Shown piece after piece: positions 14,505 to 36,878 of a stretch of 64,000 nt of DNA. Position 1 is the stretch's first letter, and each line of letters starts with the position of its first letter. The stretch is from contig CAKNFP010000002.1 in assembly GCA_930633525.1 (NCBI GenBank), positions 124,001-188,000 on the forward strand, given 5' to 3'. A program made the position numbers and the translations under genes. A model generated the notes under the pieces. It made no database searches and was not told the origin of the DNA. It was given only the letters and a program-made list of their open reading frames with translations. Source of the stretch: Hyphomicrobiales bacterium (lineage in GTDB: Bacteria > Pseudomonadota > Alphaproteobacteria > Rhizobiales > Beijerinckiaceae).

Positions 14505-15277
<773 letters not shown>

Positions 15278-15281
<4 letters not shown>

Positions 15282-19019: not shown

Positions 19020-19844
19020 CTATACCCTCAGCTCGCGCGCTACGCGCTGTAGCAGCCCAAGCGTGCGCTGCAGATCGACAGGCTCCTCGCCCATCCGCTG
19101 GATATACGGGCAGGTCAGTACAGCGATCGCGTGACCTTCCGTTGAAAGGATGGGCACGCTGATATCGCTCACACCGAATATCTGCTGGCTCTTGTCGATG
19201 CGATAGCCAGCCTGGTGATATTCGGCCAGCACCGGTTCAAGCTGGCGAAGCGCCTGCTCCTTTTCCGTCCCCCTCCAGTGGGCAAAAAGCTCAGATCGGG
19301 ATTGGTCATCCTGAAAGGCAAGGAAAAGCTGGCCGGAACTCGTCGCCAGCAGATCGATCGGGGTGCCGACGCGAACGGTGAACACCCAGTCGCCCGACGC
19401 GGCTGCATTGGCCACGACGACGGCGGCATCACGCTCGCGCACCACGAGATGGCACGATTGGCCGGCCTCCACGGCGAAAGTGTCCATCATGGGCACCGCG
19501 CGTGACGTGAGGCGTCGCAATGGCGGATGGTGCTGGCCAAGCACGAATAGTTTCATGCTCAGGGAGAACCGATCCCCCTCGGCCGATCGGTAGACATATC
19601 CGCGCGCGACCAGCCGCTCGAGCATCCGATAGATTTCACTCGCGCCGCGGCCCAGCTCCTTTACGATTTCCGCGCGGGTCAGGGCGTCGGAGCGCGCTGC
19701 CAGCAGTTCCAGAATGTCGAGGCCCTTGTCGAGCGCCGGAGCGCGATAGAGCTCCTCGCGGCCCATCGTCTTGGTCAAATCGTCCGTAGCGCTCGTCAAT
19801 CCACAATCCCCCCTTCGCGCAGTGGCGCGGTCTTTTATTGACAT
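19020..19844 (-). CDS. IclR-family transcriptional regulator of fucD
   Basis: An IclR protein of up to 274 residues. The winged-helix domain (about 35-95: APALDKGLDILELLAARSDALTRAEIVKELGRGASEIYRMLERL) is followed by an effector domain (MDTFAVEAGQSCHLVVRERD, RVGTPIDLLATSSGQLFLAF). The ATG at 19844 lacks a ribosome site and lies inside a palindrome. An ATG at 19766 (MGREELYRAP) would also give a complete HTH domain, so the start is uncertain. The gene diverges from the L-fuconate dehydratase gene, and the shared intergenic holds a -35 box overlapping an inverted repeat, which suggests repression and autoregulation. Confidence 0.87.
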   Translation of the reverse strand: MSIKDRATARRGDCGLTSATDDLTKTMGREELYRAPALDKGLDILELLAARSDALTRAEIVKELGRGASEIYRMLERLVARGYVYRSAEGDRFSLSMKLFVLGQHHPPLRRLTSRAVPMMDTFAVEAGQSCHLVVRERDAAVVVANAAASGDWVFTVRVGTPIDLLATSSGQLFLAFQDDQSRSELFAHWRGTEKEQALRQLEPVLAEYHQAGYRIDKSQQIFGVSDISVPILSTEGHAIAVLTCPYIQRMGEEPVDLQRTLGLLQRVARELRV

Positions 19845-19866
19845 ATGAATACAATGTTCATATTTG
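19838..19866 (+). promoter_or_regulatory. Promoter with overlapping operator for fucD
   Basis: A consensus -35 TTGACA (19838-19843) is followed after 17 bases by TATTTG (19861-19866). Between and across them ATATGAA (19843-19849) and TTCATAT (19857-19863) form a perfect inverted repeat with a 7-base spacer. A bound dimer would block the plus-strand promoter and cover the 5' end of the divergent IclR gene. The leader to the fucD ATG would be about 165 bases. Confidence 0.55.
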
Positions 19867-20037
19867 ATCCGTCAACGACGACGATGCGTGATTGTCAGGG
19901 AGGCGGTACTGTGCACCTGAGCGAGAAGCGCGTTTTCATCATCGCGATGCCGTCTGTCAGGGCGCGGTTGATGATGGTCGGGAGCCTTGTTTTGCGTGCG
20001 TGATCGGCGTGCCCGGCGCCGCATCGGAGAACTCGTC

Positions 20038-21315
20038 ATGACCAAGATCGTCGACATCGAGGTGATCGATCTTCGCTTTCCGACCTCCCAGCATCTCGAC
20101 GGGTCGGATGCGATGAACCCGGATCCGGATTATTCGGCAGCTTACGTTATTCTTAAGACGGACCAGCCCGAGCTCCAGGGCCACGGGCTGACGTTCACGA
20201 TCGGCCGGGGTAACGAGATTTGCTGTGCCGCCATCAAGGCAATGGCACATCTCGTCGTTGGATTGTCGCTTGAAGATGTGCGCGCGGATCTCGGCGCTTT
20301 CTGGCGTCACGTCACATCCGACAGCCAGCTGCGCTGGATCGGCCCGGACAAGGGCGCTATCCATCTCGCAACGGGCGCGGTGGTCAATGCGGTGTGGGAT
20401 CTGCTCGCCAAGATGGCGGGCAAGCCGGTCTGGCGTCTCGTCAGCGATATGACACCGGAAGAATTCGTCAGGGCAATCGATTTCCGCTACCTCACCGATT
20501 GCATCACGGCCGACGAAGCCTTGGCCATGCTTCGCGAGAAGGAAGTTGGCAAAGCCGAGCGGATCGCTGTTCTGGAGCGTGAGGGCTACCCCTGCTACAC
20601 CACTTCGGCTGGCTGGCTCGGCTATGACGACGACAAGCTGCGGCGGTTGTGCCAGGAGGCCGTCGACCAGGGCTTCAACCACGTGAAGCTGAAGGTCGGG
20701 CGGGACCTCGAGGATGACAAACGTCGCCTGCGCATCGCGCGGGAGGTCATCGGACCGGACCGGCAACTGATGATCGATGCCAACCAGGTCTGGGAGGTCG
20801 GCGAGGCTATCGAACACGTGCGCCAGTTGGCTTTTGCCGAGCCCTGGTTCATCGAGGAGCCGACAAGCCCAGACGATATTGAGGGCCACCGGAAAATTCG
20901 CGAAGGCGTCGAGCCGGTCAAGGTCGCGACCGGCGAAATGTGCCAAAACCGCATCATGTTCAAACAGTTCATCATGCGTGGCGCAATCGATGTCGTGCAG
21001 ATAGACTCCTGCCGTCTCGGCGGGGTCAACGAAATCCTGGCTATTCTGCTGATGGCCGCCAAATATGGCTTGCCCGTTTGTCCGCACGCGGGCGGTGTCG
21101 GCTTGTGTGAATATGTCCAGCACTTGTCGATGATCGACTTCGTCTGTGTCTCCGGCACCCGCGAGGGTCGCGTCATTGAATATGTCGATCATCTGCACGA
21201 GCACTTCAAGGAGCCATGCGTCATTCGTGACGCCGCTTATATGCCGCCGAAGGCGCCCGGCTTCTCGATCGAAATGAAGCCTGCCAGCCTGAAGGACTAT
21301 CGTTTTGGAGCCTGA
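20038..21315 (+). CDS. fucD: L-fuconate dehydratase (enolase superfamily)
   Basis: A 425-residue enolase-superfamily protein very like bacterial FucD and human ENOSF1 along its whole length. Segments such as FPTSQHLDGSDAMNPDPDYSAAYV, SDSQLRWIGPDKGAIHLATGA and EYVDHLHEHFK agree. The catalytic set is in place: K217/K219 (KLK), metal ligands D247, E273 and E300 (IDANQ, IEEP, ATGE), D323, and H350 in CPHAGGVGLCE. It dehydrates L-fuconate to 2-keto-3-deoxy-L-fuconate, a step in L-fucose oxidation. The ATG at 20038 has GGAGA upstream. The gene lies downstream of an IclR-type operator and upstream of a sugar-acid MFS carrier, so the pair may import and dehydrate an aldonate. Confidence 0.9.
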   Translation: MTKIVDIEVIDLRFPTSQHLDGSDAMNPDPDYSAAYVILKTDQPELQGHGLTFTIGRGNEICCAAIKAMAHLVVGLSLEDVRADLGAFWRHVTSDSQLRWIGPDKGAIHLATGAVVNAVWDLLAKMAGKPVWRLVSDMTPEEFVRAIDFRYLTDCITADEALAMLREKEVGKAERIAVLEREGYPCYTTSAGWLGYDDDKLRRLCQEAVDQGFNHVKLKVGRDLEDDKRRLRIAREVIGPDRQLMIDANQVWEVGEAIEHVRQLAFAEPWFIEEPTSPDDIEGHRKIREGVEPVKVATGEMCQNRIMFKQFIMRGAIDVVQIDSCRLGGVNEILAILLMAAKYGLPVCPHAGGVGLCEYVQHLSMIDFVCVSGTREGRVIEYVDHLHEHFKEPCVIRDAAYMPPKAPGFSIEMKPASLKDYRFGA

Positions 21316-21446
21316 TGGCTTCCGCCAGATACATTTCTAGCCTTCGAGCCACATCAATTCCCTCGTTGCAAGACATCGCGCGTGATCGGCATGGACTGGT
21401 CACGCAGAGCTGTCGAGGGTCTAGGAAATACTCAAGGGAGCTTCCC

Positions 21447-22787
21447 ATGAAGCATGTCGCACCCACCAGGGGCAGCGCCAAAGCGCCGGTCGGCGCCACA
21501 AAGATACGCTACGTCATGTTGACGCTGTGTTTCTTTGGGCTCGTCATCAACTATCTCGACAGGGCCAACATGAGTGTGGCCTTGCCCTATATCGACGCTG
21601 AGCTCCAGCTCAACCTCTCGAATACGGAAAAAGGCCTGATCCTCGGGGCGTTCTTCTGGGCCTACGACGGTATGATGCTACTGGCCGGCTGGTTCACGGA
21701 CAAGGTCGGGTCACGCCGGGCCTTCACCCTCGCGGCCATCTGGTGGTCGATCTTCACCGCGCTGACGCCTCTCGCCCGCGGCTTCTGGGGGTTCTTCGGC
21801 TTCCGCTTCATGCTAGGGGCCGGCGAGGCACCGGCCTATCCCAGTGCCACGAAGGCGGCCTCGCGCTGGTTCCCGGTGGGAGAGCGTGCATTCGCGACCG
21901 CGGTAATCGATTCCGGTTCGCGCGTCGGCACGGTGTTGTCGCTTCCGATCGTGACGAGCCTGATTGCCTTGACCACCTGGCATTATTCCTTCGTCGTGCT
22001 GGGTGTGGTTGGTCTCGTTTGGGCGGGTGTGTGGTATTGGTATTATCGCGATCCCACCGAGCATTCCGCGGCCAATGATCTGGAGCGCCAGTATATCGCG
22101 GAGAACGGCAGTCGCACGGAGGCCAATGACGACAGCGAGGCCGTCAAGATCCGCTGGTCGCAACTGTTCCGCTACCGCACGGTCTGGGGGATGATGCTCG
22201 GCTTCTTCTGCCTGAACTTCGTCATCTATTTCTTCCTGACGTGGTTTCCCGACTATCTCAGGAACGCCCGGGGGCTCAACCTGACGCAACTTGGCACGTT
22301 GGGCATGCTGCCGGGGCTCGCCGCGGTCGTGACAGCGTGGACCGCCGGTGCCTACGCCGATCGCCTCATCCGTGGCGGTGCGAATGTCACCGTGGTGCGC
22401 AAAGTCGTTATGGTGGGCGGGCTCCTGGGTGGAGCGGCCATCCTGCCGGCCGCTTTTGCGTCCTCGATCTATATGGCCCTGTTCTTTCTCGCCATTTCCT
22501 ACAGCAGCCTTGCTGTCGCCGCGACAGGCATCTGGTCGCTGCCAGCCGACGTGGCGCCAAGCTCGCACCATGTCGCTTCGATCGGCGGTATCCAGAACTT
22601 CGCGTCAAATATTGCCGGCATTGTCAGTCCCTTCATGTTCGGCTTCCTGCTCGACAAGTTCCATGGCGATTACACGCCGTCCTTCGCGGTGGCGGCGGGC
22701 TTTGCAGTTCTCGGGGCGTTCTCCTACGCCTTTATCGTCGGCCGGGCCGAGCCGCTGCCGATCCTTCCCAGCACGGCTCGCGGTTGA
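21447..22787 (+). CDS. MFS transporter, anion:cation symporter type (sugar acids)
   Basis: A 446-residue 12-helix permease. RYVMLTLCFFGLVINYLDRANMSVALPYI is the ACS-family signature seen in glucarate and hexuronate carriers. GWFTDKVGSRRAF is the loop 2-3 motif, and the second half is IRWSQLFRYRTVWGMMLGFFC onward. The ATG at 21447 with GGGAG upstream is preferred over the open frame back to 21315. It follows fucD by 131 bases and is likely cotranscribed, delivering an aldonate such as L-fuconate or galactonate. Substrate assignment is contextual. Confidence 0.88.
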   Translation: MKHVAPTRGSAKAPVGATKIRYVMLTLCFFGLVINYLDRANMSVALPYIDAELQLNLSNTEKGLILGAFFWAYDGMMLLAGWFTDKVGSRRAFTLAAIWWSIFTALTPLARGFWGFFGFRFMLGAGEAPAYPSATKAASRWFPVGERAFATAVIDSGSRVGTVLSLPIVTSLIALTTWHYSFVVLGVVGLVWAGVWYWYYRDPTEHSAANDLERQYIAENGSRTEANDDSEAVKIRWSQLFRYRTVWGMMLGFFCLNFVIYFFLTWFPDYLRNARGLNLTQLGTLGMLPGLAAVVTAWTAGAYADRLIRGGANVTVVRKVVMVGGLLGGAAILPAAFASSIYMALFFLAISYSSLAVAATGIWSLPADVAPSSHHVASIGGIQNFASNIAGIVSPFMFGFLLDKFHGDYTPSFAVAAGFAVLGAFSYAFIVGRAEPLPILPSTARG

Positions 22788-23047: not shown

Positions 23048-23057
23048 TTGTAGACAA
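23048..23057. promoter_or_regulatory. TTGTAGACAA operator at the prpF start
   Basis: A perfect TTGTNNACAA element ends 2 bases before the prpF ATG. It is shared with the sites upstream of prpD. It occupies the ribosome-binding position, and no good Shine-Dalgarno is visible between it and the ATG. Confidence 0.6.
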
Positions 23058-23059
23058 TT

Positions 23060-24196
23060 ATGGCCGCTCCCATTTCCCTGCCTGTCGCCTTCATGCGCGG
23101 TGGTACAAGCAAGGCGCTGGTTTTTCACGCGCGTGATCTGCCGCCGCTTCATTCCGACGGTCAACGCGCGGCCTGGTCGGATGTCTTTCTGAGAGCGCTC
23201 GGGAGCCCGGATCCCAACGGCCGGCAGCTCAATGGTATGGGCGGAGGGCTATCGTCGCTCTCGAAGGTGGCTGTCGTTGGCCCCGCGACCCGCGCTGATG
23301 CTGATGTCGACTACACATTCGCGCAGGTTGGCATAGGGGATACGGCGGTCGGTTATCGCGGCAACTGCGGCAATATTTCCGCTGCAATCGGCCCGTTTGC
23401 TGTCGATGAAGGCTTGATCGCTCCACACAAGGGAAGGGCGACGGTTCGCATCCACAACACCAATACAGGAAAGATCATCGTTGCAGACTTCGAGGTTCTA
23501 GACGGTCGCGCGGCGATCGAGGGGGACTTCGCGATACAGGGCGTGTCAGGTACCGGCGCACCTATCAGGCTTGCCTTTCAACAGCCGGGCGGCGCCGCAA
23601 CGGGCAGGCTCTTTCCGACAGGCGAGGCTGTCGATCGGCTCGACATTTCCGGGTATCCTCGTTTGCCGGTAACACTGCTCGACGTCTCGAACCCCGTGGT
23701 TTTCGTTGCGGCGACCGAACTGGGGCTGAGGGGAGATGAGGCCCCCGCGGATCTAGCCGCGAACGCCTCTCTAATCCAGACATTCGAGGATATTCGCAGC
23801 GCCGCGGCCGTTGCCATGGGGCTGGTCCCGTCAGAGGTCGAAGCACGGACCAAGTTGAAAAATCTTCCGCTTGTCGCGCTGCTGTCCAGACCTTCCGATG
23901 AGTCATGCGATATCGTGACCCGCATGGTCTCGACGGGCCAGCCGCACAAGGCGACACCGCTGACAGGTGCGATGTGCCTTGCTGCCGCGGTCAAGCTTCC
24001 CGGCACGATCGCGCATCAACTGGCGCGGATATCAGAGCCGGGCGCTGATGTACGGATCGCCCACGCGTCCGGGATATTGCCGGTATCAGCCACTGTGAGA
24101 AAGCAGGACAACACCTTCGAAGTTACCGAGGCTGTCGTCTATCGTACCGCACGGCGTCTTATGGATGGGCGCGTTTATCTCGCGCCCTCACACTGA
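23060..24196 (+). CDS. PrpF-family isomerase (aconitate/methylitaconate isomerase-like)
   Basis: A 378-residue PrpF-fold protein. FMRGGTSKALVFHARDLP at the N-terminus, GMGGGLSSLSKVAVV (about 59), YRGNCGNISAAIGPFAV (about 98, with the conserved Cys) and the C-terminal ASGILPVSATVRKQ are family blocks. PrpF proteins shift double bonds in unsaturated tricarboxylates: trans-2-methylaconitate, 4-oxalomesaconate or 3-methylitaconate. Here no AcnD is adjacent, so the classic 2-methylcitrate role is not assured. The start lacks a clear ribosome site and sits on a GntR-type operator. It is convergent with gntR and belongs to the regulon containing the PrpD-like and PrpB-like genes. Confidence 0.85.
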   Translation: MAAPISLPVAFMRGGTSKALVFHARDLPPLHSDGQRAAWSDVFLRALGSPDPNGRQLNGMGGGLSSLSKVAVVGPATRADADVDYTFAQVGIGDTAVGYRGNCGNISAAIGPFAVDEGLIAPHKGRATVRIHNTNTGKIIVADFEVLDGRAAIEGDFAIQGVSGTGAPIRLAFQQPGGAATGRLFPTGEAVDRLDISGYPRLPVTLLDVSNPVVFVAATELGLRGDEAPADLAANASLIQTFEDIRSAAAVAMGLVPSEVEARTKLKNLPLVALLSRPSDESCDIVTRMVSTGQPHKATPLTGAMCLAAAVKLPGTIAHQLARISEPGADVRIAHASGILPVSATVRKQDNTFEVTEAVVYRTARRLMDGRVYLAPSH

Positions 24197-24207
24197 CGCT
24201 CTCCACA

Positions 24208-24948
24208 TCAGCTCTTGCGACGTCGACGTGTCGACACGCTCGCCGCCTCTTGTTCCTCACGGGCCCGCAGCGCCTTCTCCATGTTGGCGCGTGAGGCTTG
24301 GATATGCCTGCGCATCAACATTTCCGCCAGATCCGCGTCACGATCAGCAATCGCGGCGGCGATACGCTGGTGTTCGATGAAGGCGCGCTGTGCTCGGCCG
24401 CTGACGATGGCGTGCTGAAAGCGATAAAGGCGGATCAACTGGTAGTATTCGTCGCACAAGAGATGAAAGAGGCTCGAACTCCCACTATAGCGCACGATTG
24501 CGAAATGAAAGTCCTCGTCAGCGCCATTCTGAACATAGCCCCTTGAACCTAGATTGAGCTGTGTTTCATGCGCTTGCAGCATTGTGTAGAGTTCGTCGAC
24601 TTGGGCATCGGTGATCCGTCCGGCTGCCTCGCGTGCCGCCAAGCCCTCAAGGACCTCGCGGATGGCGAAAGTCTCACTCATCATTTCTTGGGTTATAGTC
24701 ACCACGCGCGCGCCGAGGCGCGGCGAGCGGGTGACGAGGCGTCGCTCTTCCAGCCGCCTGATTGCCTCGCGGAGCGGCCCGCGACTGACGCCGAGACGGC
24801 GTGAAAGATCCGGCTCGCTCAGCTTCGCGCCAGGTTTGATCTCCCCCCGCACGATCGCGTCACTGATCTGGCGGAAGGCGCGATCGGACAATGTTTGCTC
24901 ATCGCCTTCGGTGCCTTCCAGAATGGTTCTGCCCACGGTGTCGTTCAT
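24208..24948 (-). CDS. GntR-family (FCD) transcriptional regulator
   Basis: A 246-residue regulator. The GntR winged helix spans about residues 20-85 (LSDRAFRQISDAIVRGEIKPGAKLSEPDLSRRLGVSRGPLREAIRRLEE). The FCD effector domain follows (about 95-220), with FAIREVLEGLAAREAAGR and metal-type acid/His positions DEDFHFAIVRYSGS. A basic tail RRRRKS ends the protein. It lies between prpF and prpD. An ATGTCGACAA site is 29 bases upstream of its own start, and TTGTNNACAA sites mark both neighbours. It is almost certainly the local repressor, sensing an organic acid of the pathway. Confidence 0.9.
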   Translation of the reverse strand: MNDTVGRTILEGTEGDEQTLSDRAFRQISDAIVRGEIKPGAKLSEPDLSRRLGVSRGPLREAIRRLEERRLVTRSPRLGARVVTITQEMMSETFAIREVLEGLAAREAAGRITDAQVDELYTMLQAHETQLNLGSRGYVQNGADEDFHFAIVRYSGSSSLFHLLCDEYYQLIRLYRFQHAIVSGRAQRAFIEHQRIAAAIADRDADLAEMLMRRHIQASRANMEKALRAREEQEAASVSTRRRRKS

Positions 24949-24976
24949 GCCGGGAATTTAAGGGAAACCCCAGAAG

Positions 24977-24986
24977 ATGTCGACAA
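24977..24986. promoter_or_regulatory. ATGTCGACAA operator upstream of gntR
   Basis: Matches TTGTNNACAA at nine of ten positions with a TGTCGACA palindromic core. On the minus strand it overlaps a TTGTCG -35-like hexamer, spaced 17 bases from a CCTTAA-like -10, so it suggests autoregulation of the GntR gene. Confidence 0.5.
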
Positions 24987-25014
24987 CGCGACGGTCGCAA
25001 CCTGCGATGCGAAA

Positions 25015-25024
25015 TTGTTGACAA
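25015..25024. promoter_or_regulatory. TTGTTGACAA operator, prpD promoter (distal copy)
   Basis: A perfect TTGTNNACAA element containing a TTGACA -35 hexamer. An identical 10-mer occurs 63 bases downstream. It lies between gntR and prpD. Confidence 0.6.
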
Positions 25025-25077
25025 AAATGCTGACACATCCTGTTCAATGGTCGGAACTGCGGAGATTCTGGCAATAT

Positions 25078-25087
25078 TTGTTGACAA
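25078..25087. promoter_or_regulatory. TTGTTGACAA operator, prpD promoter (proximal copy)
   Basis: The second identical TTGTTGACAA, also containing TTGACA, 75 bases upstream of the chosen prpD start. The 63-base centre-to-centre distance is six helical turns, which would allow two dimers on one face of the DNA. Confidence 0.6.
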
Positions 25088-25161
25088 AATAGCCCGATCT
25101 CCGGAAGGTAGGGCGCATAAGTGATAAAACTCCGCCAATGAGCGGGAGGAGGCGCCCGGAC

Positions 25162-26682
25162 ATGAAGTCGCATAAAGTTCGAGTATTTAGGAGCGCGGAG
25201 ACGCCGGTTAGGCAGAATCTCTTGGCCTGGAAGCTCGCCGAGGTTGCGCTCGACGATGCGCCGCTCGATCGCGATGTTGTCGACATGATCGTCAATCGTG
25301 TCATTGACAACACGGGCGTAGCGATTGCCGGAATAGCGCGCCGCCCCGTTGCCAATGCACGCGCGCAGGCGGTGTGTCATCCCCACGCCGGCGGCGCGAC
25401 CGTCTACGGCCTCCCGCGAGACCAGCGCGTCTCGGCGGAATGGGCCGCATGGGCCAATTGCACCGCTGTTCGGGAACTCGACTTTCACGACACGTTCCTC
25501 GCCGAGGATATGAACCATCCGGGAGACATGATTCCCGCCGTGTTGGCTGTCGGGCAGCAGATCGGCGCGACGGGTGCGGATCTCATCCGCGGATTGGCGG
25601 CGTCCTATGAGATATGCGGAGATCTGACCAAGGGCATCTGCCTGCACAAGCACCGGATCGACCATCTGACTCATATCGGAGCGGGCATGGTTGCTGGTAT
25701 CGGCGCCATGATGCGCCTGCCGACCGAGGTCCTCTACCAAGCTATCAACCACATCGTCCATGCGAGCGTTACGACGCGGCAGTCCCGCAAGGGCGAGATT
25801 TCCACCTGGAAGGCCAATGCACCCGGCCACACGGGAAAGCTCGCCGTGGAGGCGATCGACCGGGCCATGCGCGGTGAAACCGCTCCAGCGCCGATCTATG
25901 AGGGCGATGACAGTATCATCGCCTGGCTTTTGAAGGGGCCGGATGCTGAGTACGATGTGCCGCTGCCCGAAAAGGGCGAGCCGAAGCGGGCTATTCTTGA
26001 GACATACACCAAGGCCTATTCAGCTGAGATCCAGGCCCAGGCGCTGATCGACCTCGCGTTTCGTATGCGCCAGCGCATTCCGGATCTTGGCGCCGTACGC
26101 TCCATCGTCATTCACACGAGCCATCATACCCATCGCATCATCGGCAATGGTTCGGAGGATCCCCAGAAGTACAATCCGGAAGCAAGCCGCGAAACACTCG
26201 ACCACAGCGCCATGTATATCTTCTCCGTGGCCCTTGAGGATGGCGTGTGGGATCACATCACGAGCTACACGCCAGAACGCGCCGGACGTCCCGATACGGT
26301 CGCACTCTGGCGGAAGATCAGCACGGTCGAGGATGCGGAGTGGACCGCGCTTTATCACCACGCTGACCCGGCGAAAAGAGCTTTCGGCGGTCGCGCTGTC
26401 ATCACGCTTGTCGATGGGACGGTGATCGAGGATGCGCTCAATGTCGCGGATGCGCATCCATCGGGCGCCCGGCCATTCGGGCGCGAGGACTATGTCGCGA
26501 AATTCCGGGCGCTCGCTGCGCTGATGGCGACGGAGACCGAGATCGATCGCTTCCTGTCACAGGCCTTGAGCTTGCCGGACCTGCCCGCTGGCAAGCTCGT
26601 CGAACTGACTCTCGAGATCGAGGCATCGCGTCGCGAACCCCCGGGATTGAAGCGCGGCCTGTTCGAGATGTCCTCGCTTTGA
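25162..26682 (+). CDS. MmgE/PrpD-family dehydratase (2-methylcitrate dehydratase-like)
   Basis: A 506-residue MmgE/PrpD protein. RVIDNTGVAIAGIARRPVANARAQ (about 45), VRELDFHDTFLAEDMNHPGDMIPAVLAVGQQ (about 107, the family's conserved D/H region) and STWKANAPGHTGKLAVEA are recognisable. The ATG at 25162 follows GGGAGGAGG by 9 bases and is preferred to 25138. Family members dehydrate 2-methylcitrate, and the fold is shared with cis-aconitate decarboxylase, so the substrate is a citrate-like acid. It is expressed from a promoter with two GntR-type operators. Downstream are an ABC importer and a PrpB-like lyase. Confidence 0.85.
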   Translation: MKSHKVRVFRSAETPVRQNLLAWKLAEVALDDAPLDRDVVDMIVNRVIDNTGVAIAGIARRPVANARAQAVCHPHAGGATVYGLPRDQRVSAEWAAWANCTAVRELDFHDTFLAEDMNHPGDMIPAVLAVGQQIGATGADLIRGLAASYEICGDLTKGICLHKHRIDHLTHIGAGMVAGIGAMMRLPTEVLYQAINHIVHASVTTRQSRKGEISTWKANAPGHTGKLAVEAIDRAMRGETAPAPIYEGDDSIIAWLLKGPDAEYDVPLPEKGEPKRAILETYTKAYSAEIQAQALIDLAFRMRQRIPDLGAVRSIVIHTSHHTHRIIGNGSEDPQKYNPEASRETLDHSAMYIFSVALEDGVWDHITSYTPERAGRPDTVALWRKISTVEDAEWTALYHHADPAKRAFGGRAVITLVDGTVIEDALNVADAHPSGARPFGREDYVAKFRALAALMATETEIDRFLSQALSLPDLPAGKLVELTLEIEASRREPPGLKRGLFEMSSL

Positions 26683-26758
26683 AGCATAGCGGTCCGGCTG
26701 GTTGGGAGGCCCGCCGGATCGCCCGTTCAAATCAAGACAAGAACACCGTCCATAGAAA

Positions 26759-26770
26759 ATGTCCGGACAT
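26759..26770. promoter_or_regulatory. ATGTCCGGACAT palindrome upstream of the importer
   Basis: A perfect 12-bp palindrome lies 28 bases upstream of the substrate-binding-protein ATG. It differs from the TTGTNNACAA sites by wider half-site spacing. It could be another operator or chance in GC-rich DNA. Confidence 0.3.
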
Positions 26771-26797
26771 ATCCGGTAATAACATGAGGAGGAAAAC

Positions 26798-27907
26798 ATG
26801 ATTTCAAGACGTTTACTGCTGGCTGCATCAGTATTTTCTCTATCGGCGGCGATGTTGCCTGCCGGCGCGCGCTCAGCGGAGGTGCCCGCGGGCTATCCCG
26901 CCACCTACAGCGATGTTGTCAAGAAAGGCACCGCGGAGGCGAAGCTGCGCGTTTATTCGACAACCGATGCAGCTTCCGTGCAGCCTCTGATCGCGGACTT
27001 CGAGGCACTTTATCCTGGTATCAAGGTCGAATATTCTGATATTTCCAGCGCGGAAATCTATAATCGTGTGATCTCCGAGGATGCCGCCCGGCAGCCGGGC
27101 GCCGATGTCGTGTGGACGAGCGGCATGGATACGGGTACGCGCCTAGCCGCTGACGGCTACGCCGCCGAATATGCGTCACCGGAAACGGCAAAGCTGCCGG
27201 GTTGGGCGAACTGGAAGAATATAGCCTACGGAACAACGTTTGAGCCGCTGGTCTTCATCTACAACAATCGCCTTCTCAAGGAAGATATGGTTCCTAAAAG
27301 CCATGCTGACCTGGTCAAGTTGGTGAAGGAGAAGCCGGACGTATTCAATGGCAAGTTCACCACATACGATCCGAGCCGCACGCTCGGCCTGATGCTGAAC
27401 ATGTTCGACGAGGTTCAGTGGCCGAATTTCTGGGATGCTCTTACCAGCCTCGGCAAGGGGGGGATGAGGATCGACGCGAGCTCCGGCTCGATGATGGAAA
27501 AGGTGGGCTCCGGCGAATATGTGCTCGCCTGGAACACCATCGGCTCCTACGTGCCGGCGTTGAAGCGGCGCAATCCGGCGATCGGCATGGTCGTTCCCTC
27601 GGACTACACCCTGATCCTCTCCCGCGTGGCCTTCGTTTCCGCAAAGGCCCAACATCCGAACGCGGCGCGTTTGTTCCTCGACTATCTCCTCTCCGCTCGC
27701 GGGCAGAAAATCCTGATGGATAAGGCCGAACTCTATTCCATCCGGAGTGACCTGGAAGGCGAACTCACGGCGGCGGCGCTGGCGAAGCAGATCGGCGAGG
27801 CGGCCCGTCCTATTCCCATCGGCGACCAGTTGCTCGACCGGGTCATGAACGAGCGCGGGCGTGTGGAGTTCCTGCGCAAGTTCCAGGAGTCCCTTCGTGC
27901 ACGGTAA
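26798..27907 (+). CDS. Fe3+/PotD-type ABC transporter substrate-binding protein
   Basis: A 369-residue type-2 periplasmic binding protein. The signal peptide MISRRLLLAASVFSLSAAML ends near ARSAEV. The mature part has AKLRVYSTTDAASVQPLIADFEALYPGIKVEY and QPGADVVWTSGMD, typical of the AfuA/FbpA group, which also binds organic phosphonates and carboxylates. GAGGAGG stands 7 bases before the ATG. It overlaps the permease start by 11 bases. Located between PrpD-like and PrpB-like genes, it probably brings in the organic acid they degrade, rather than iron. Confidence 0.85.
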   Translation: MISRRLLLAASVFSLSAAMLPAGARSAEVPAGYPATYSDVVKKGTAEAKLRVYSTTDAASVQPLIADFEALYPGIKVEYSDISSAEIYNRVISEDAARQPGADVVWTSGMDTGTRLAADGYAAEYASPETAKLPGWANWKNIAYGTTFEPLVFIYNNRLLKEDMVPKSHADLVKLVKEKPDVFNGKFTTYDPSRTLGLMLNMFDEVQWPNFWDALTSLGKGGMRIDASSGSMMEKVGSGEYVLAWNTIGSYVPALKRRNPAIGMVVPSDYTLILSRVAFVSAKAQHPNAARLFLDYLLSARGQKILMDKAELYSIRSDLEGELTAAALAKQIGEAARPIPIGDQLLDRVMNERGRVEFLRKFQESLRAR

Positions 27908-29633
27908 TACGCTTACGGCTTCGGACGCGGGGAGGGTGCACCGGCCCCCCCGTTGGCGCAGGGCCGGCGACCACCCGATACGCATCGCTGGCGTAGGCCT
28001 CGTTGCGCTCATCGTTTTGGCGCCAATCGCACTTATTCTATACCAGAGTTTCCTCGACAAGCCGTTCTTCATGCCGCGCACGGCGATGAGCCTTGCGGCC
28101 TATGATTTTGTCCTGCGTGATCCGGAGTTCTACCGCGCGCTGGCAAATTCCGTGATTATCGCGATCGGCATGCTCGTTATCGCGGTTCCGCTTGGCGCCC
28201 TGCTGGCCTTTCTCATGACACGGACCGATATGCCCGGTGCCGGGTGGATCGAGCCCGTGCTGCTTGCGCCGGTGTTCATCTCCGCGATCGTGATGGCCTT
28301 CGGCTATGTCGTCTCGATAGGGCCGGTCGGCTTTCTGTCACTATGGGCCAAGGATGCCTTCGGCGTCGTGCCGTGGAATCTCTATTCGATCGAGTCGCTG
28401 ATCATCATTTCCGGCCTGACGCATGTTCCGCATGTCTATCTCTACGCGTCTGCGGCTCTACGTGGCCTCAATCCCGAAGTCGAAGAGGCGGCGCGCATTT
28501 CCGGAGCGGGGGTATGGCGCGTCGCCTTCACGCTGAGCATGCCGCTCATTCTGCCCGCGCTGATCTTCAGTGGAATGCTGGTATTCCTGCTCGGCATTGA
28601 GATGTTCGGATTCGCCCTGATACTGGGTGACCCCGCCGGCATCGTTGTCCTGACAACCTATCTTTACAAGCTCACCAATCTCCTGGGGACGCCGTCGTTT
28701 CATCTTATGGCGGTCGTGGCCGTGATCATCGTGCTCATGACCCTGCCTCTGGTATTGCTGCAGCGCTACCTGCTGCGCTCGTCCGAACATTATGTCACAA
28801 TTCGCGGCAAGGGCATGTCCGGACGGCCCTTGTCGCTTGGCGCATGGCGATGGCCGGCATTTGGCTTGGTCGTGGCCTGGCTGTTCTTCACGGTTATTCT
28901 GCCGGTCAGTGGCCTTTTGCTGCGCTCGCTGGTGTCCACCTGGGGCGAGGGCGTCGACATTCTTAATGTACTCACGCTTGCGAACTACCGTGAGCTGTTT
29001 AACTATCCAAATCTTATACGCAGTATCGTGAATACGATTCTCATTGCTGGAATTGGTGGCGCGCTTGCTGTCGTCTGCTATACGGGTGTGGCGTTGATCA
29101 GCCACCGTTGGCGCAGTTCGGGCGCCGCGCTGCTCGACTTCCTCGTGATGATGCCGCGGGCGCTTCCTGGCCTCATCGCGGGCCTTGCCTTCCTGTGGAT
29201 TTTCCTGTTCGTGCCATTTCTGACACCCTTGCGGAGCACACTTGTCAGCCTTTGGGTGGCTTATACCGTAGTCTGGCTCGCCTATGGCATGCGCCTCATA
29301 AGTTCGGCGCTTTACCAGGTGGGACCAGAACTGGAGGAGGCAGCACGCGTCACCGGCGCGAGTCAGGCCAGGACCTACCGGGATGTGACAGTGCCGCTCG
29401 TGCGCTTCGGATTGATCGGAAGCTGGCTTCTCATTTTCATGACCTTTACGCGCGAATACTCGACGGGCGTCTATCTCCTCGGACCAAACACGGAGGTCAT
29501 CGGATCTATGATCATTTCGTTGTTTGGCAGCGGCGGTCTCGACCTCATCGCCGCCATGTCGGTTATCAATCTCTGCCTCGTCGGGATCCCGCTGATCGTC
29601 GCGCTGCGACTTGGAGTGCGCTTGAATGCCTGA
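27897..29633 (+). CDS. ABC transporter permease with two fused TM domains (Fe3+ type)
   Basis: About 578 residues from a GTG at 27897, which has GGAG 7 bases upstream and overlaps the SBP stop. Two BPD_transp_1 units are fused, as is normal for the FbpB-type family. Each has an EAA loop: EVEEAARISGAGVWRVAFTLSMPLI (about 200) and ELEEAARVTGASQARTYRDVTVPLV (about 480). About 12 helices are visible. The gene overlaps the ATPase gene by 8 bases. It is the sole permease of the importer in this operon. Confidence 0.88.
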   Translation: MHGNTLTASDAGRVHRPPRWRRAGDHPIRIAGVGLVALIVLAPIALILYQSFLDKPFFMPRTAMSLAAYDFVLRDPEFYRALANSVIIAIGMLVIAVPLGALLAFLMTRTDMPGAGWIEPVLLAPVFISAIVMAFGYVVSIGPVGFLSLWAKDAFGVVPWNLYSIESLIIISGLTHVPHVYLYASAALRGLNPEVEEAARISGAGVWRVAFTLSMPLILPALIFSGMLVFLLGIEMFGFALILGDPAGIVVLTTYLYKLTNLLGTPSFHLMAVVAVIIVLMTLPLVLLQRYLLRSSEHYVTIRGKGMSGRPLSLGAWRWPAFGLVVAWLFFTVILPVSGLLLRSLVSTWGEGVDILNVLTLANYRELFNYPNLIRSIVNTILIAGIGGALAVVCYTGVALISHRWRSSGAALLDFLVMMPRALPGLIAGLAFLWIFLFVPFLTPLRSTLVSLWVAYTVVWLAYGMRLISSALYQVGPELEEAARVTGASQARTYRDVTVPLVRFGLIGSWLLIFMTFTREYSTGVYLLGPNTEVIGSMIISLFGSGGLDLIAAMSVINLCLVGIPLIVALRLGVRLNA

Positions 29634-30681
29634 GCTCGTCATTGAGAATATCCGGCGGCAGATCGGTTCTCTGGAAATATTGAAGGGCATTTCTCTATCC
29701 CTCCGGCCAGGGGAGATCGTTGCGCTTCTCGGGCATTCCGGAAGCGGCAAGACCACGCTGCTGCGGTCGGTGGCGGGACTTGATGTGCCAAGCACGGGAC
29801 GTATTCAGCTCCGCGACAAGACAGTTTTCGACGACAACCGCGGCATCAACCTGCCGCCGGAACATCGCGGCCTCAGTCTTGTCTTTCAGTCCTATGCGCT
29901 CTGGCCGAACAAGACCGTTGACCAGAACGTGGGCTACGGGCTGAGACTGCGGGGCGCCAGTGCGGCGGAGACCGCGACGAAAGTCTCCGCTCTGCTGGAG
30001 CGCCTTGGGCTTGCGAGCCTCGGTAAGCGCTACCCGCATCAACTATCGGGCGGCCAGCAACAACGGGTCGCGCTCGCGCGGGCTCTGGTCTATCAGCCGC
30101 CTGTTCTGCTTCTGGACGAGCCGCTCTCCAATCTCGATGCGAAATTGCGCGAGGAAGCACGGTCCTGGCTGCGCGAACTGATCGTCCAGGCCAATATCAG
30201 CGCGCTCTACGTGACCCACGACCAGATCGAAGCGATGGCGGTGGCCGACAGGATCATGCTGCTGCGCGGCGGCAGCGTGGAGCAGGAGGGTACGCCGCAG
30301 GAGATCTATGAGCGCCCGAACTCGCTGGACGCCGCGGAATTCATGGGCAGCAACAATCGCTTCCCGGTATCCATCATCAGTGTCGATAACGGGGTCGCTT
30401 CCTTCCGACTGGGCGGGGCTGACTTGCGCGGCGCGTTGCGCGGCGCCAAGGCGGCGGGAGAAAAGGCCACCGCTCTCGTGAGGATCGAGCGGGTGCGGAT
30501 TGCCGACGGGCCCGGCGCGAACCGCATGCAGTGCGAGCTCAACGGCACGCTCTACCTTGGCGAACGGCGCGAGTACATGTTGACGGTTGATGGGACGCGT
30601 TTTCGGGCCTGGGGGCAGGTTGACCGTGCACCGGGGCCTTGCTGGGTGGACATATCGCCCGAAGATCTATGGCTGTTCTGA
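29626..30681 (+). CDS. Fe3+/PotA-type ABC transporter ATPase
   Basis: A 351-residue ATPase. Walker A GHSGSGKTT (about 36), FQSYALWPNKTV (Q-loop), signature LSGGQQQRVALARAL (about 138), Walker B VLLLDEPLSNLDAKLREEA and H-loop YVTHDQIEAM are intact. A C-terminal TOBE-like domain follows from about 245. The ATG overlaps the permease stop by 8 bases, so production should be coupled. It completes the SBP-permease-ATPase importer. Confidence 0.92.
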   Translation: MPELVIENIRRQIGSLEILKGISLSLRPGEIVALLGHSGSGKTTLLRSVAGLDVPSTGRIQLRDKTVFDDNRGINLPPEHRGLSLVFQSYALWPNKTVDQNVGYGLRLRGASAAETATKVSALLERLGLASLGKRYPHQLSGGQQQRVALARALVYQPPVLLLDEPLSNLDAKLREEARSWLRELIVQANISALYVTHDQIEAMAVADRIMLLRGGSVEQEGTPQEIYERPNSLDAAEFMGSNNRFPVSIISVDNGVASFRLGGADLRGALRGAKAAGEKATALVRIERVRIADGPGANRMQCELNGTLYLGERREYMLTVDGTRFRAWGQVDRAPGPCWVDISPEDLWLF

Positions 30682-30694
30682 ACTGAGAAAAATC

Positions 30695-31585
30695 ATGACG
30701 CATTTTGAACGTGGAAAGAGACTGCGCGCGGCTGTGGCGGACCGCCGGGCGTTGCTCGCGCCGGGCGCCGCCAACGCCTTGACCGCACGGATCGCGGAGG
30801 ATCTCGGCTACGAAACCGTCTATGTCACGGGCGCTGGCATCGCCAATACAGGCTATGGGGTTCCCGATATCGGCCTCACAACCGTGACAGAGGTCGCCAA
30901 TACAGTCGCGGCTATTTCCGACTGCTGCGACTTGCCGCTCATCGTTGATGCCGACACCGGATTCGGCAATCCTTTGAACATGATCAGGACGGTCCGCTCG
31001 CTGGAGCGCGCGGGTGCCAATGCGCTGCAGATCGAAGACCAGCAGTTTCCCAAGCGCTGCGGGCACTTTGCCGGCAAATCCGTGATCCCCCAGGCGGAGA
31101 TGTGCGAGAAGGTCAAGGCAGCGGTCGACAGTCGCTCCACGGAGGACCTGCTGATCATCGCCAGAACGGATGCCTATGCCGTCGAAGGTCTCGCCGCGGC
31201 GCTGGACCGCGCCGCGGCCTATATCGAGGCCGGTGCGGATGTGACCTTCGTGGAGGCCCCGACGAGTGAAGCCCAACTGCGGGAGATCGTAAAGCGCCTG
31301 GCGGCGCCGCAGGTCATCAATCTGGTGATAGGTGGAAAGACACCGCTTCTCTCCCAAGCCGCGTTGAAAGATATTGGCTTTTCGCTGGTTCTCTATGCCA
31401 ACGCGGCCTTGCAGGCGTCGATCGTGGCTATTCGCGACGTCCTGTCGGGAATTCGCGACCAGGGGGGCGCCGGAACGCTGCTCCATCGGCTGGCGACTTT
31501 CGAGGATCGACAGAACGTCGTGCGCAAGCCCTATTGGGATGATCTGGAGAAGCGCTATGTGGACGATCCCGGTGCTCCGGCTTGA
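30695..31585 (+). CDS. Isocitrate lyase/PEP mutase superfamily lyase (PrpB-like)
   Basis: A 296-residue beta-barrel lyase. YVTGAGIANTGYGVPDIG (about 43), the metal-binding IVDADTGFG (D85/D87) and KRCGH (120-124), with the catalytic Cys, are the hallmarks of methylisocitrate lyase, dimethylmalate lyase and relatives. The full KRCGH motif favours C-C lyase activity over phosphonate mutation. The ATG at 30695 has a modest GAGAAA site 13 bases after the ATPase stop. As the last gene of the operon, it probably cleaves the hydrated acid to pyruvate or glyoxylate plus a carboxylate. Confidence 0.85.
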   Translation: MTHFERGKRLRAAVADRRALLAPGAANALTARIAEDLGYETVYVTGAGIANTGYGVPDIGLTTVTEVANTVAAISDCCDLPLIVDADTGFGNPLNMIRTVRSLERAGANALQIEDQQFPKRCGHFAGKSVIPQAEMCEKVKAAVDSRSTEDLLIIARTDAYAVEGLAAALDRAAAYIEAGADVTFVEAPTSEAQLREIVKRLAAPQVINLVIGGKTPLLSQAALKDIGFSLVLYANAALQASIVAIRDVLSGIRDQGGAGTLLHRLATFEDRQNVVRKPYWDDLEKRYVDDPGAPA

Positions 31586-32914: not shown

Positions 32915-34003
32915 TCAGACATGGCCGGCGAAGGCCAGTGCGTCTTCCGCGCGCCACGATACCGAGACATTATCGCCTGGGCCGGGGATGCTACCTGCGA
33001 CGGAGCTGTTCAGCATCGTCGCGCGTAGGCTGAGGCCAAGCGCAGACACCGTGATTTGAAACCGATCACCAATGAGCGCGGTATGCTCCACGGTGCCCGG
33101 TAGCCCTTCTTCACCGCTCCCGAGCCGGATGTTCTCGGGGCGCACCATGAGCGTGGCGGGCCCGGCGGAAAGCTGTGATCGCGGTAAGGCATAATCCCTC
33201 GCTGGCCCATCAAGGCGGAAAATCGACCCGGCGGCGGCCGGACGGAGTTCTCCGTGGAGCCTGTTGGTCTCACCGACGAAATCCGCCACGAATGGTGTTG
33301 CCGGTTGATTGTAGAGGTCCAGCGGCCTGCCGATCTGTTCGATGCGCCCCGCGTTCATGACGGCAATACGATCCGACATTGTCATCGCCTCCGCCTGATC
33401 GTGGGTGACGAGGATCGTCGTGACGCCGAGCCTTTTCTGTAGGTTGCGTATCTCGATCTGGACGGACGCCCTGAGCTTGGCATCTAGTGCGGCAAGTGGC
33501 TCATCGAGCAGCAGGATTGTCGGCTCCACGACGATGGCGCGCGCCAGCGCCACCCTTTGCTGCTGGCCGCCCGAGAGTTGCGCTGGCCGCCTCTCGGCGA
33601 AGGCCGCCATCTGGACGAGATCCAGGGCATGGGCAACGCGCCTGGCAACCTCAGTTTTGTCGAGGCGCCTCATCTTGAGCCCGAAGGCGACGTTTTGCGC
33701 GACGTTCATGTGGGGAAAGAGAGCATAGCTCTGGAAGACGACACTGATGTCCCGCTTCCAGGGCGCCGTTTCCACGAGTGAGCGATCGTCAACGCGGATA
33801 TCACCGCGATCCACGGTGATCAGGCCCGCGATACACCGAAGCAAGGTCGTCTTGCCGCATCCCGAGGGCCCGAGCAGCGCAATGAACTCACCGGGCGCCG
33901 CCTCGAGATTGATGTCGCGCAGCGCGGGGGCGTCATCATAGGATTTCGCGACATCCCGGATCGCGATGCGCCCGCGCGTGGGACGGGAAGCGAGCTCAGC
34001 CAT
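32915..34003 (-). CDS. Spermidine/putrescine-type ABC transporter ATPase (PotA-like)
   Basis: A 362-residue ATPase. Walker A GPSGCGKTT (about 45), FQSYALFPHMNVAQNVAFGLKMR, signature LSGGQQQRVALARAI, Walker B ILLLDEPLAALDAKLR and VTHDQAEAM are intact. A TOBE domain forms the last 100 residues. The ATG at 34003 overlaps the permease stop by 8 bases and is preferred to the open frame back to 34069. It is the last gene of a four-gene minus-strand importer. Confidence 0.92.
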   Translation of the reverse strand: MAELASRPTRGRIAIRDVAKSYDDAPALRDINLEAAPGEFIALLGPSGCGKTTLLRCIAGLITVDRGDIRVDDRSLVETAPWKRDISVVFQSYALFPHMNVAQNVAFGLKMRRLDKTEVARRVAHALDLVQMAAFAERRPAQLSGGQQQRVALARAIVVEPTILLLDEPLAALDAKLRASVQIEIRNLQKRLGVTTILVTHDQAEAMTMSDRIAVMNAGRIEQIGRPLDLYNQPATPFVADFVGETNRLHGELRPAAAGSIFRLDGPARDYALPRSQLSAGPATLMVRPENIRLGSGEEGLPGTVEHTALIGDRFQITVSALGLSLRATMLNSSVAGSIPGPGDNVSVSWRAEDALAFAGHV

Positions 34004-34820
34004 TGCGGCGTTGTTCCTGGTTGCTGGGCAGGGTGAGATTGCGCAGTCCATAGGTATATTCGAGCGCAACGAGGCCGATGATGACGATGATCATCTTGAC
34101 CACGGAAATCGCTGCGACAGCAGGGTCGTAGTTGTTGACGAGATAGCCGAGTATTGCCACGGGAAGGGTCATTGAACGGGCGTTCGACAACAGCAGCGAA
34201 ATCGCGACTTCGTCGAAGGAAATCAGAAAGGCGAACATCCCTCCCGCGAACAGGGCTGGTCGCAGCATCGGCAATGTCACATGCCAGAAGGTTGCGAGCG
34301 GCGGCGCGCCCAGCGTGTAGGAAGCCTCCTCGATGCGAGGGTCCGTGCTCGCATAGACGGCGACGATCGTACGCAGGAGATAGGGGATAGTGATCACGAC
34401 ATGGCCGATGACAAGGCCAGTGAACGTGTTTCCGAGACCGATTGCGCTGAGGTAAAACAGCAATGCGATCGCCAGGATCAGCGCTGGCATGCTGAGCGGC
34501 GACAAGAGAAAGGTCTGGATGGCCGTCGAAAAGCGGAAGGGATGCCGGACAAGCGCGATGGCGGCGGGCACCGCGACGACCGCGGCAAACACTGTCGCCA
34601 GCAACCCGAGAACCACGCTGTTCCACATGGGCCGCATGAACGCCGGATCTGCCATGACCTGTCCAAACCACCGCAGCGAGAAGCCGGGCGGGGGAAATGA
34701 CACGAAGCTTGCAGAGGAAAAGGCGACGACGAAGACGATCGCTTGCGGCGCCATGATGAAGAGGCCGGCAAGGATCACATAGACCCGCAAGCCATTGCCG
34801 AGCTTCTCGACCTGTCTCAT
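33996..34820 (-). CDS. PotC-like ABC transporter permease
   Basis: A 274-residue permease with six predicted helices and the EAA loop IEEASYTLGAPPLATFWHVTLPML (about 170). SSASFVSFPPPGFSLRWF after the first helix is typical of the PotC group. The ATG at 34820 overlaps the upstream permease stop by 4 bases (ATGA), so the frame's extension to 34916 is rejected. Confidence 0.9.
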   Translation of the reverse strand: MRQVEKLGNGLRVYVILAGLFIMAPQAIVFVVAFSSASFVSFPPPGFSLRWFGQVMADPAFMRPMWNSVVLGLLATVFAAVVAVPAAIALVRHPFRFSTAIQTFLLSPLSMPALILAIALLFYLSAIGLGNTFTGLVIGHVVITIPYLLRTIVAVYASTDPRIEEASYTLGAPPLATFWHVTLPMLRPALFAGGMFAFLISFDEVAISLLLSNARSMTLPVAILGYLVNNYDPAVAAISVVKMIIVIIGLVALEYTYGLRNLTLPSNQEQRRNG

Positions 34821-35656
34821 CGACCAGCCCTCGACCTGGCGAGACGCAGCTGCAGCGCAATCACGATGATCGCGGTCAGCAGCAGAATATTGCCAAGGGC
34901 GGCCGCGAACGGCCAATCCGATGCAAGGTTGAGTTGCTGATAGATCAGCAGAGGGAGAACCATCGTTGCATTGCTGCCCATGAGCATCACCGTCACGAAA
35001 CTGCCCATGCTCAAAGCGAAGACCAGCAGCATACCGGTCATCACGCCCTGCGCACTCAGCGGCAGAACCACATGGATGAAGCTCCGAAAAGGCGAGGCGC
35101 CAAGTGTTGTTGCGGCCTCCTCCAGAGCGCCGTCAATGCCTTCGAGCGTGCTGGCGATGGACAGCACCATGAACGGAAGGAGGACATGCACAAGTGCCAG
35201 CCAGATGGCAAACCACCCGCTGCCGATGTTGACTGTATCGAGGTTGAGCGCCTTGAGGATCGCATTGATAACGCCGCTTCGGCCCAGGATGATCATCCAG
35301 CCAAAAGTCCGGACCACAACATTGATGAGTAGCGGTGTGACGATCAGAAAGATCAGGAGGCTCTTCGTGCGCCCCGACGACCGCGCGATGGCAAGAGCGA
35401 GCGGATAGCCCAGCACAAGCGTGGCCGACGTGACCGCGATGCTGAGTGCAAGCGTGACGCCGAGGACACCGAGATAATAGGCGTCGCCGAGGGCGCGCGC
35501 ATATTGGTAAATCCCGAGGCCTTCGGGCGTCTCAAGACTGCGTCCCGTGTTGAGCGCAAGCGGCCCGACGAAGAACGCAAGAAGAAAAACGACGGCCGGG
35601 AGGGACAGAAGGAGGCCGGGTGCAACACCCGGCCTTAGACGAGCCGCTTCGGTCAT
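34817..35656 (-). CDS. PotB-like ABC transporter permease
   Basis: A 279-residue permease with six helices. The EAA loop is LEEAATTLGASPFRSFIHVVLPLS (about 175), and PLLINVVVRTFGWMIILGRSGVIN is a PotB-group stretch. The ATG at 35656 is used; a GTG directly before it is an alternative. It lies 30 bases after the SBP gene and overlaps the next permease by 4 bases. It pairs with the PotC-like protein as a heterodimeric channel. Confidence 0.9.
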   Translation of the reverse strand: MTEAARLRPGVAPGLLLSLPAVVFLLAFFVGPLALNTGRSLETPEGLGIYQYARALGDAYYLGVLGVTLALSIAVTSATLVLGYPLALAIARSSGRTKSLLIFLIVTPLLINVVVRTFGWMIILGRSGVINAILKALNLDTVNIGSGWFAIWLALVHVLLPFMVLSIASTLEGIDGALEEAATTLGASPFRSFIHVVLPLSAQGVMTGMLLVFALSMGSFVTVMLMGSNATMVLPLLIYQQLNLASDWPFAAALGNILLLTAIIVIALQLRLARSRAGR

Positions 35657-35686
35657 CACAGAACGCTGCCGCTAGCGGTCGCCATA

Positions 35687-36718: not shown

Positions 36719-36792
36719 TCCCCATGCTCCCTTTTCTCGCGATACCAGACCGTGCACCGGCGTCGCATCGCGAAGGATCGGTACAGAGGCAG

Positions 36793-36822
36793 GCTCATCT
36801 TGACGCTAGACTGCTCATCTTG
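36793..36822. promoter_or_regulatory. Two GCTCATCTTG direct repeats, 20-base period
   Basis: Identical 10-mers at 36793-36802 and 36813-36822 are spaced exactly 20 bases (about two helical turns) in the 160-base intergenic between the divergent PotD-like and IclR genes. This fits a tandem binding site for the IclR protein; it is supported by spacing only. Confidence 0.45.
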
Positions 36823-36878
36823 TACCAAATCTGTCAACCAGTTGCTGCAGATGAAACAATCACAGGGTTGATGCAATA

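Follow-up and report, generated by a model that had tools for sequence, protein, structure and literature searches.

The window analysed here is a stretch of 64 kb (C2:124001-188000) from a Hyphomicrobiales bacterium with a genome of 7.16 Mb in 6 contigs. At positions 23060-31585 it carries a gene cassette made up of prpF, a divergent GntR/FCD gene and then, all in one direction, prpD and the genes of a binding protein, a permease, an ATPase and a lyase. A preliminary description of this DNA had seen in it an isomerase of the PrpF fold, an MmgE/PrpD-type dehydratase, a PrpB-fold lyase and an importer of substrate-binding protein, permease and ATPase, and every one of these parts was matched by Pfam or NCBIfam. 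The features are as follows.

23048..23057, plus strand: TTGTNNACAA operator-like site (exact match), just upstream of prpF
23060..24196, plus strand: PrpF-fold isomerase, 378 aa (Pfam PrpF, 347 bits)
24208..24948, minus strand: GntR/FCD-type regulator between prpF and prpD, divergent from prpD (Pfam/NCBIfam)
24977..25087: operator-like sites in the gap between regulator and prpD, TTGTTGACAA at 25015 and 25078 (exact) and ATGTCGACAA at 24977 (one mismatch)
25162..26682, plus strand: MmgE/PrpD-fold (de)hydratase, 506 aa (MmgE_PrpD N 203 bits, C 132 bits)
26798..27907, plus strand: periplasmic binding protein of the Mg-citrate-binding (MctA) type (SBP_bac_8, 83 bits)
27897..29633, plus strand: two-domain ATP-binding cassette (ABC) permease (two BPD_transp_1 stretches in one protein)
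29626..30681, plus strand: ABC ATPase (ABC_tran, 124 bits)
30695..31585, plus strand: PrpB-fold lyase of the isocitrate lyase/phosphoenolpyruvate mutase superfamily, 296 aa (PEP_mutase, 153 bits)

From prpD to the lyase gene the reading frames overlap or are separated by gaps of 13-115 nt. PrpD most likely starts at the ATG at 25162, behind GGGAGGAGG, rather than at 25138, the permease probably at the GTG at 27897, overlapping the binding-protein stop, and the lyase at the ATG at 30695, 13 nt past the ATPase stop. The absence of a citrate synthase homologue from the window, also stated earlier, was borne out by tblastn (threshold 1e-6) when three of the four citrate synthases of the genome, the prpBCD one included, served as queries. 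At the same threshold AcnA, LeuC, LeuD, TctA, TctC, TcuA and TcuB queries gave no match in the window, and Rfam and tRNA scans found nothing. The cassette is a real and coherent unit of known fold families; no description of an ABC-PrpF-PrpD-lyase cassette was found among the titles and abstract openings listed by literature searches.

A separate prpBCD operon, the search for which had been proposed as a check, is present and complete on contig C1 (C1:2638987-2642518 and beyond, minus strand, order prpD-prpC-prpB). Its PrpB scores 417 bits (cut-off 354), its 2-methylcitrate/citrate synthase 700 (cut-off 550) and its PrpD 909. Propionate disposal as the role of the cassette was rejected in view of this operon, which also holds the 2-methylcitrate synthase that the cassette does not have. 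With the 2-methylcitrate cycle (prpBCD or prpBC-acnD-prpF) the cassette shares the fold families and the predicted last steps, a (de)hydration followed by C-C cleavage. It differs from the cycle in having an importer and a GntR regulator instead of a synthase, in a lyase and an isomerase that score under the equivalog cut-offs, in a PrpD of a separate clade, in pairing PrpF with PrpD and not with AcnD, and in the separate prpBCD of the same genome.

PrpD was placed in a tree of 131 rows (the window protein, the genome's own PrpD, 80 loci, 45 of 120 listed proteins and four more loci). The window PrpD falls into a clade of 52 rows (SH-aLRT 100), separate from the 2-methylcitrate dehydratases of prp operons, and the genome's own canonical PrpD lies among the other 79. 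Majority residues differ between clade and others at 15 positions (51 versus 79 rows, P0115 excluded), three of them within or beside the HPGD loop, which lies in the active site in structures of the family. A citrate-synthase homologue accompanies 68 of the 80 PrpD loci; the 12 without one comprise four from the window's clade and eight from the other side. The window PrpD reaches 751 bits against an equivalog cut-off of 950, and two clade mates reach 754. Canonical PrpDs also stay below the cut-off (909 in this genome, 931 in Afipia), whereas that of Tsukamurella passes with 990. With the canonical PrpD of the same genome below it, the cut-off is uninformative; what distinguishes the window PrpD is a score lower by about 160 bits, its place in the tree and its changed loop. 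Many clade proteins are at present named '2-methylcitrate dehydratase'.

Few whole genomes carry a member of the clade, and the cassette is patchily distributed. None of 384 other genomes in a sample of the class had a PrpD match above 62% identity (six were over the E threshold at 59-62%). In a Bordetella-like family PrpD matches of 67-70% identity occurred in 6 of 74 genomes, two previously known ones included. Of 248 genomes from the order to which an Acidimicrobiaceae genome belongs, 1 had a match, and this was the starting genome itself. At the thresholds set, PrpD and the binding protein are absent from all three same-genus genomes, which argues that the cassette is accessory; a search for the binding protein in 14 genomes that share their genus with a Xanthobacter locus was likewise empty. 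Close relatives of the window proteins are named Chelatococcus and Pseudochelatococcus, and the host therefore probably belongs to that group. Two Acidimicrobiaceae loci have PrpD followed by a PrpF that is 46% identical to that of the window. In six Bordetella-like loci the PrpD relative stands without a PrpF; a Bug/TctC-type binding-protein gene, a type very numerous in Bordetella-like genomes, follows it in five of them (L027, L030, L168, L170 and L171; not L169).

The lyase is a diverged paralogue of a propionate enzyme, as is the PrpD. It scores 293 bits against the PrpB equivalog cut-off of 354, which the genome's own PrpB passes with 417. The residues D58, D85, D87, E115, the KxCGH loop, R158 and N210 of E. 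coli PrpB are kept, while the pocket is altered: T212-E213-F214 is changed to V-I-G and P236 to A, so that the motif T-E-F-G-x-T-P reads V-I-G-G-K-T-P. V212, G214 and A236 occur in every one of the 120 relatives listed, the window protein among them, and E213 in none; the PrpB of the prpBCD operon in this genome retains the usual T-E-F and P. Methylisocitrate lyases are the best matches of the full-length lyase; for its C-terminal 82 residues they rank behind petal death protein, 2,3-dimethylmalate lyase and oxaloacetate acetylhydrolase.

Among solved structures the best relatives of the isomerase are 3-methylitaconate isomerase (Mii, 3g7k; 276 bits), PrpF (224) and oxalomesaconate isomerase (184), a ranking within a family whose function is not readable from similarity. 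With the PrpF model it scores 277 bits, below that model's cut-off, and a Lys and a Cys align with K73 and C107, the catalytic residues of PrpF according to the available text of PMC5690661, where the Shewanella enzyme is reported to convert trans- to cis-aconitate. TarA and TbrA are described as aconitate isomerases of the PrpF superfamily in PMC11495376; the window protein belongs to the same superfamily, and aconitate isomerase activity is a putative assignment for it. A GalD-type oxalomesaconate tautomerase was rejected: that model gives 325 bits, more than the PrpF model, yet far below its cut-off of 440, and the window protein has the PrpF motif MRGGTSK, where the YbhH relative has Arg.

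The binding protein is nearest in sequence, fold and ligand residues to the Mg-citrate-binding protein MctA, the binding protein of a metal-citrate ABC system (PDB 7f6e and mutants). Identity is 37-38%, the fold is the same, and the MctA ligand residues S26, D28, S79, S164, T199 and Y221 are all present. It differs from MctA in belonging to a catabolic operon, and citrate binding is a prediction here. The citrate-type binding protein argues for three carboxylates on the imported acid. The tcu locus on a Paracoccus yeei plasmid has a GntR gene, the same three-gene importer (45-51% identical), carboxylate enzymes and an adjoining prpB; tcuAB stand there, in contrast to PrpF and the PrpD paralogue, with no tcu gene, in the cassette. 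In L195 (by annotation) and L197 (read by eye) a histidine kinase, and in L159 a response regulator, immediately precedes a relative of the binding protein, which suggests that some of these relatives may serve as periplasmic sensors.

Three exact copies of TTGTNNACAA occur in the 64 kb (23048, 25015 and 25078), all in the two intergenic regions of the cassette. Shuffled sequence held 0.30 on average and reached three copies in 2 of 100 shuffles, for a pattern that was derived post hoc from the sites themselves. This restriction to the two regions fits a single regulator for the prpF arm and the prpD arm, so that the co-regulation claimed earlier is plausible; the operator role is putative. 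Promoter and terminator scans gave no excess over shuffles.

The surroundings of relatives were read in 20 PrpF-relative stretches (43-61% identity) in the order, drawn from 43 listed places outside this genome; L137, L138 and L144 among the 20 are short. A PrpB-type lyase is found in 13, an importer (Tct, TRAP, HAAT or ABC) in 11, a TcuA-like gene in eight and a hydratase (AcnA, LeuCD or MmgE/PrpD) in seven. L145 resembles the cassette in its same-architecture ABC importer (27% for binding protein and permease), a lyase 62% identical, and PrpF followed directly by MmgE/PrpD; in L179 a 24% MmgE match is not readable as one clean frame. Eight plasmid loci were opened for PrpF or lyase relatives. 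Some intervening genes omitted, five of them read GntR, lyase, acnA, citrate symporter, PrpF and TctBA in Rhodococcus opacus; TctC, tcuA, LeuCD, TctC and PrpF in Hydrogenophaga; tcuBA, acnA, PrpF and GntR in Shinella; acnA, TctABC, GntR and lyase in Roseibium; and GntR, lyase, HAAT importer and MmgE/PrpD in Methylobacterium. This genome itself has at least three further lyase-plus-importer sets (C2:197k, C1:366-384k and C1:3878-3893k, the importer of one read by eye), and the logic therefore looks modular and swappable.

Taken together, we consider it probable (about 0.68) that this is a GntR-controlled, patchily distributed catabolic cassette for importing, isomerising, hydrating and cleaving an external tricarboxylate. 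The MctA-type ABC importer would bring in a citrate-like tricarboxylate, the PrpF-fold enzyme would shift or flip its C=C bond (trans/cis or allylic), the PrpD paralogue would hydrate the product to an isocitrate-like 2-hydroxy acid, and the PrpB-fold lyase would cleave this to a 2-oxo acid, either glyoxylate or pyruvate, together with a dicarboxylate, either succinate or a substituted one, both of which would enter central metabolism. No synthase would be needed, because the carbon skeleton would arrive from outside. The preliminary description had likewise suggested, in place of propionate disposal, that a tricarboxylate or a related acid from outside might be taken up and degraded, and it gains support from the prpBCD on C1, the MctA-like binding protein, the diverged PrpD and lyase paralogues and the position of relatives near tricarballylate, aconitase and Tct genes. 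The substrate is probably, at about two in three, some external tricarboxylate or a close relative. The PrpF adjoining PrpD suggests that the imported acid is an isomer that PrpD cannot take directly, and thus an unsaturated tricarboxylate; one of the trans-aconitate or 2-alkyl-aconitate kind is a tentative first choice, held at well under even odds. Equally tentatively, the 52-row clade may represent a new hydratase for an environmental unsaturated tricarboxylate, working with PrpF, the 'LYANAALQA'-subfamily lyase and the MctA-type importer in an undescribed pathway. The reading offers a testable function both for the PrpD clade, whose members often bear the name '2-methylcitrate dehydratase', and for the lyase subfamily, which records call 'oxaloacetate decarboxylase' or '2-methylisocitrate lyase-like'. 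It would also tie to carbon uptake a family of citrate-binding ABC importers that annotation often assigns to iron transport.

Several observations weigh against this reading. Plain trans-aconitate could enter the tricarboxylic acid (TCA) cycle after the isomerase, which would make a dedicated hydratase and lyase redundant, and it is not certain that an isocitrate-like acid is cleaved, with some records of the lyase subfamily named 'oxaloacetate decarboxylase'. The trio is not always linked: there is no PrpF near PrpD in six of eight other clade loci examined. Eight canonical-side PrpD loci (of 80) also have no synthase in the stretch examined, and the PrpD cut-off does not discriminate. The neighbour counts of the 20 stretches stand without a background set for comparison; L143, L154 and L155 (3/20) have no lyase, hydratase, importer or TcuA, and L149 and L153 show a weak citrate-synthase match (27-30%) at 7-9 kb distance. 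Among the plasmids, the Agrobacterium locus consists of GntR and PrpF only, that of Sagittula of a TRAP importer and lyase with no hydratase of these kinds, and that of Paracoccus pantotrophus bears no annotation.

The chief rival, which we regard as unlikely, is that the cassette degrades a C6-C8 dicarboxylate bearing alkyl groups, be it methylitaconate, dimethylmaleate or some larger alkyl-itaconate; in this case PrpF would give the maleate, PrpD the 2,3-dialkylmalate and the lyase a 2-oxo acid and a carboxylate. The Mii score (276 versus 224 bits for PrpF) and the sequence similarities of the lyase C-terminus point in this direction, whereas the kept citrate-binding residues, the whole-length lyase scores and the absence of an aconitase-type dimethylmaleate hydratase from the window speak against it. 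Eubacterium barkeri uses the methylitaconate-dimethylmalate route in nicotinate fermentation, with an aconitase-like hydratase. The likeness to this route drawn earlier holds as logic (isomerise, hydrate, cleave, with Mii as the best solved relative of the isomerase and a partial similarity of the lyase in its C-terminal piece); as membership it fails, since the cassette hydratase is of a different fold family, MmgE/PrpD, with no AcnA, LeuC or LeuD homologue in the window. A further difference is that the enzymes of the cassette come with an ABC importer whose binding protein is of the citrate type.

That the cassette is a second methylcitrate pathway, for imported or endogenous 2-methylcitrate or methylaconitate and propionate-related carbon, seems improbable. 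Its PrpD is 54-64% identical to relatives outside the clade, most of them in synthase-bearing loci, its only strong model is PrpD, and the genome's true PrpD is also under the cut-off; against this stand the complete prpBCD elsewhere, the missing synthase, and a PrpD loop changed throughout the clade as well as a lyase pocket changed throughout the listed subfamily. PrpF would moreover be superfluous beside PrpD, because AcnD and PrpF substitute for PrpD in the methylcitrate pathway (PMC5690661, available text). Least probable is a ferric-iron or thiamine-type importer adjoining the enzymes by chance, an assignment suggested by the many relatives automatically named 'iron(III) transport system substrate-binding protein' and by the superfamily shared with ferric-binding proteins. 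Iron or thiamine import was rejected on the fold comparison, in which MctA entries outscore the best ferric-binding protein by 14 Z units or more, and the close spacing of the prpD-to-lyase genes and the PrpD and binding-protein relatives on equal-sized contigs in six cases also speak against chance. A known system close to the cassette is tarA-tarB-tarR of Bacillus velezensis for trans-aconitate assimilation, in which an importer and a regulator of its own accompany an isomerase of the PrpF superfamily and the acid is likewise an external one. There, as far as the available text of PMC11495376 goes, the importer is of the major facilitator superfamily (MFS), the regulator LysR-type and the product cis-aconitate, a TCA intermediate, and the operon is described without a hydratase or lyase.

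The further sets of this genome vary in composition. L185 (C2:189000-206000) has a second PrpB over the cut-off at C2:197491, about 9.5 kb past the window end, beside TctC- and TctA-like genes and with no PrpC or PrpD match. L187 (C1:366000-384500) combines a HAAT importer, two MmgE/PrpD genes, a lyase, hydantoinase-like proteins and a TcuA-like FAD protein, and L189 (C1:3878000-3893000) a lyase, LeuCD-like genes and HAAT-like genes read by eye.

Directly upstream of prpF lies a cluster (19020-22787) of an IclR regulator, an enolase-superfamily (MR_MLE) dehydratase-like protein and a galactonate-type MFS transporter, whose gene ends just 272 nt before prpF. The enolase-superfamily/MFS pair (19987-22787) was not counted as part of the cassette, since an IclR gene of its own (19020-19844) accompanies it and it is not preceded by an exact TTGTNNACAA site. 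Farther upstream a 628-aa frame on the minus strand (15278-17164) reads as a fusion of LivH-like and LivM-like permeases of the branched-chain-amino-acid type (by eye and HAAT permease match), next to a Liv-type ATPase frame (14505-15281). Downstream of the cassette, 32915-37673 holds a divergent IclR gene and another ABC importer, whose ATPase is of the polyamine/2-aminoethylphosphonate type; the importer genes, all on the minus strand, are a binding protein (35687-36757), two permease frames and the ATPase (32915-34069).
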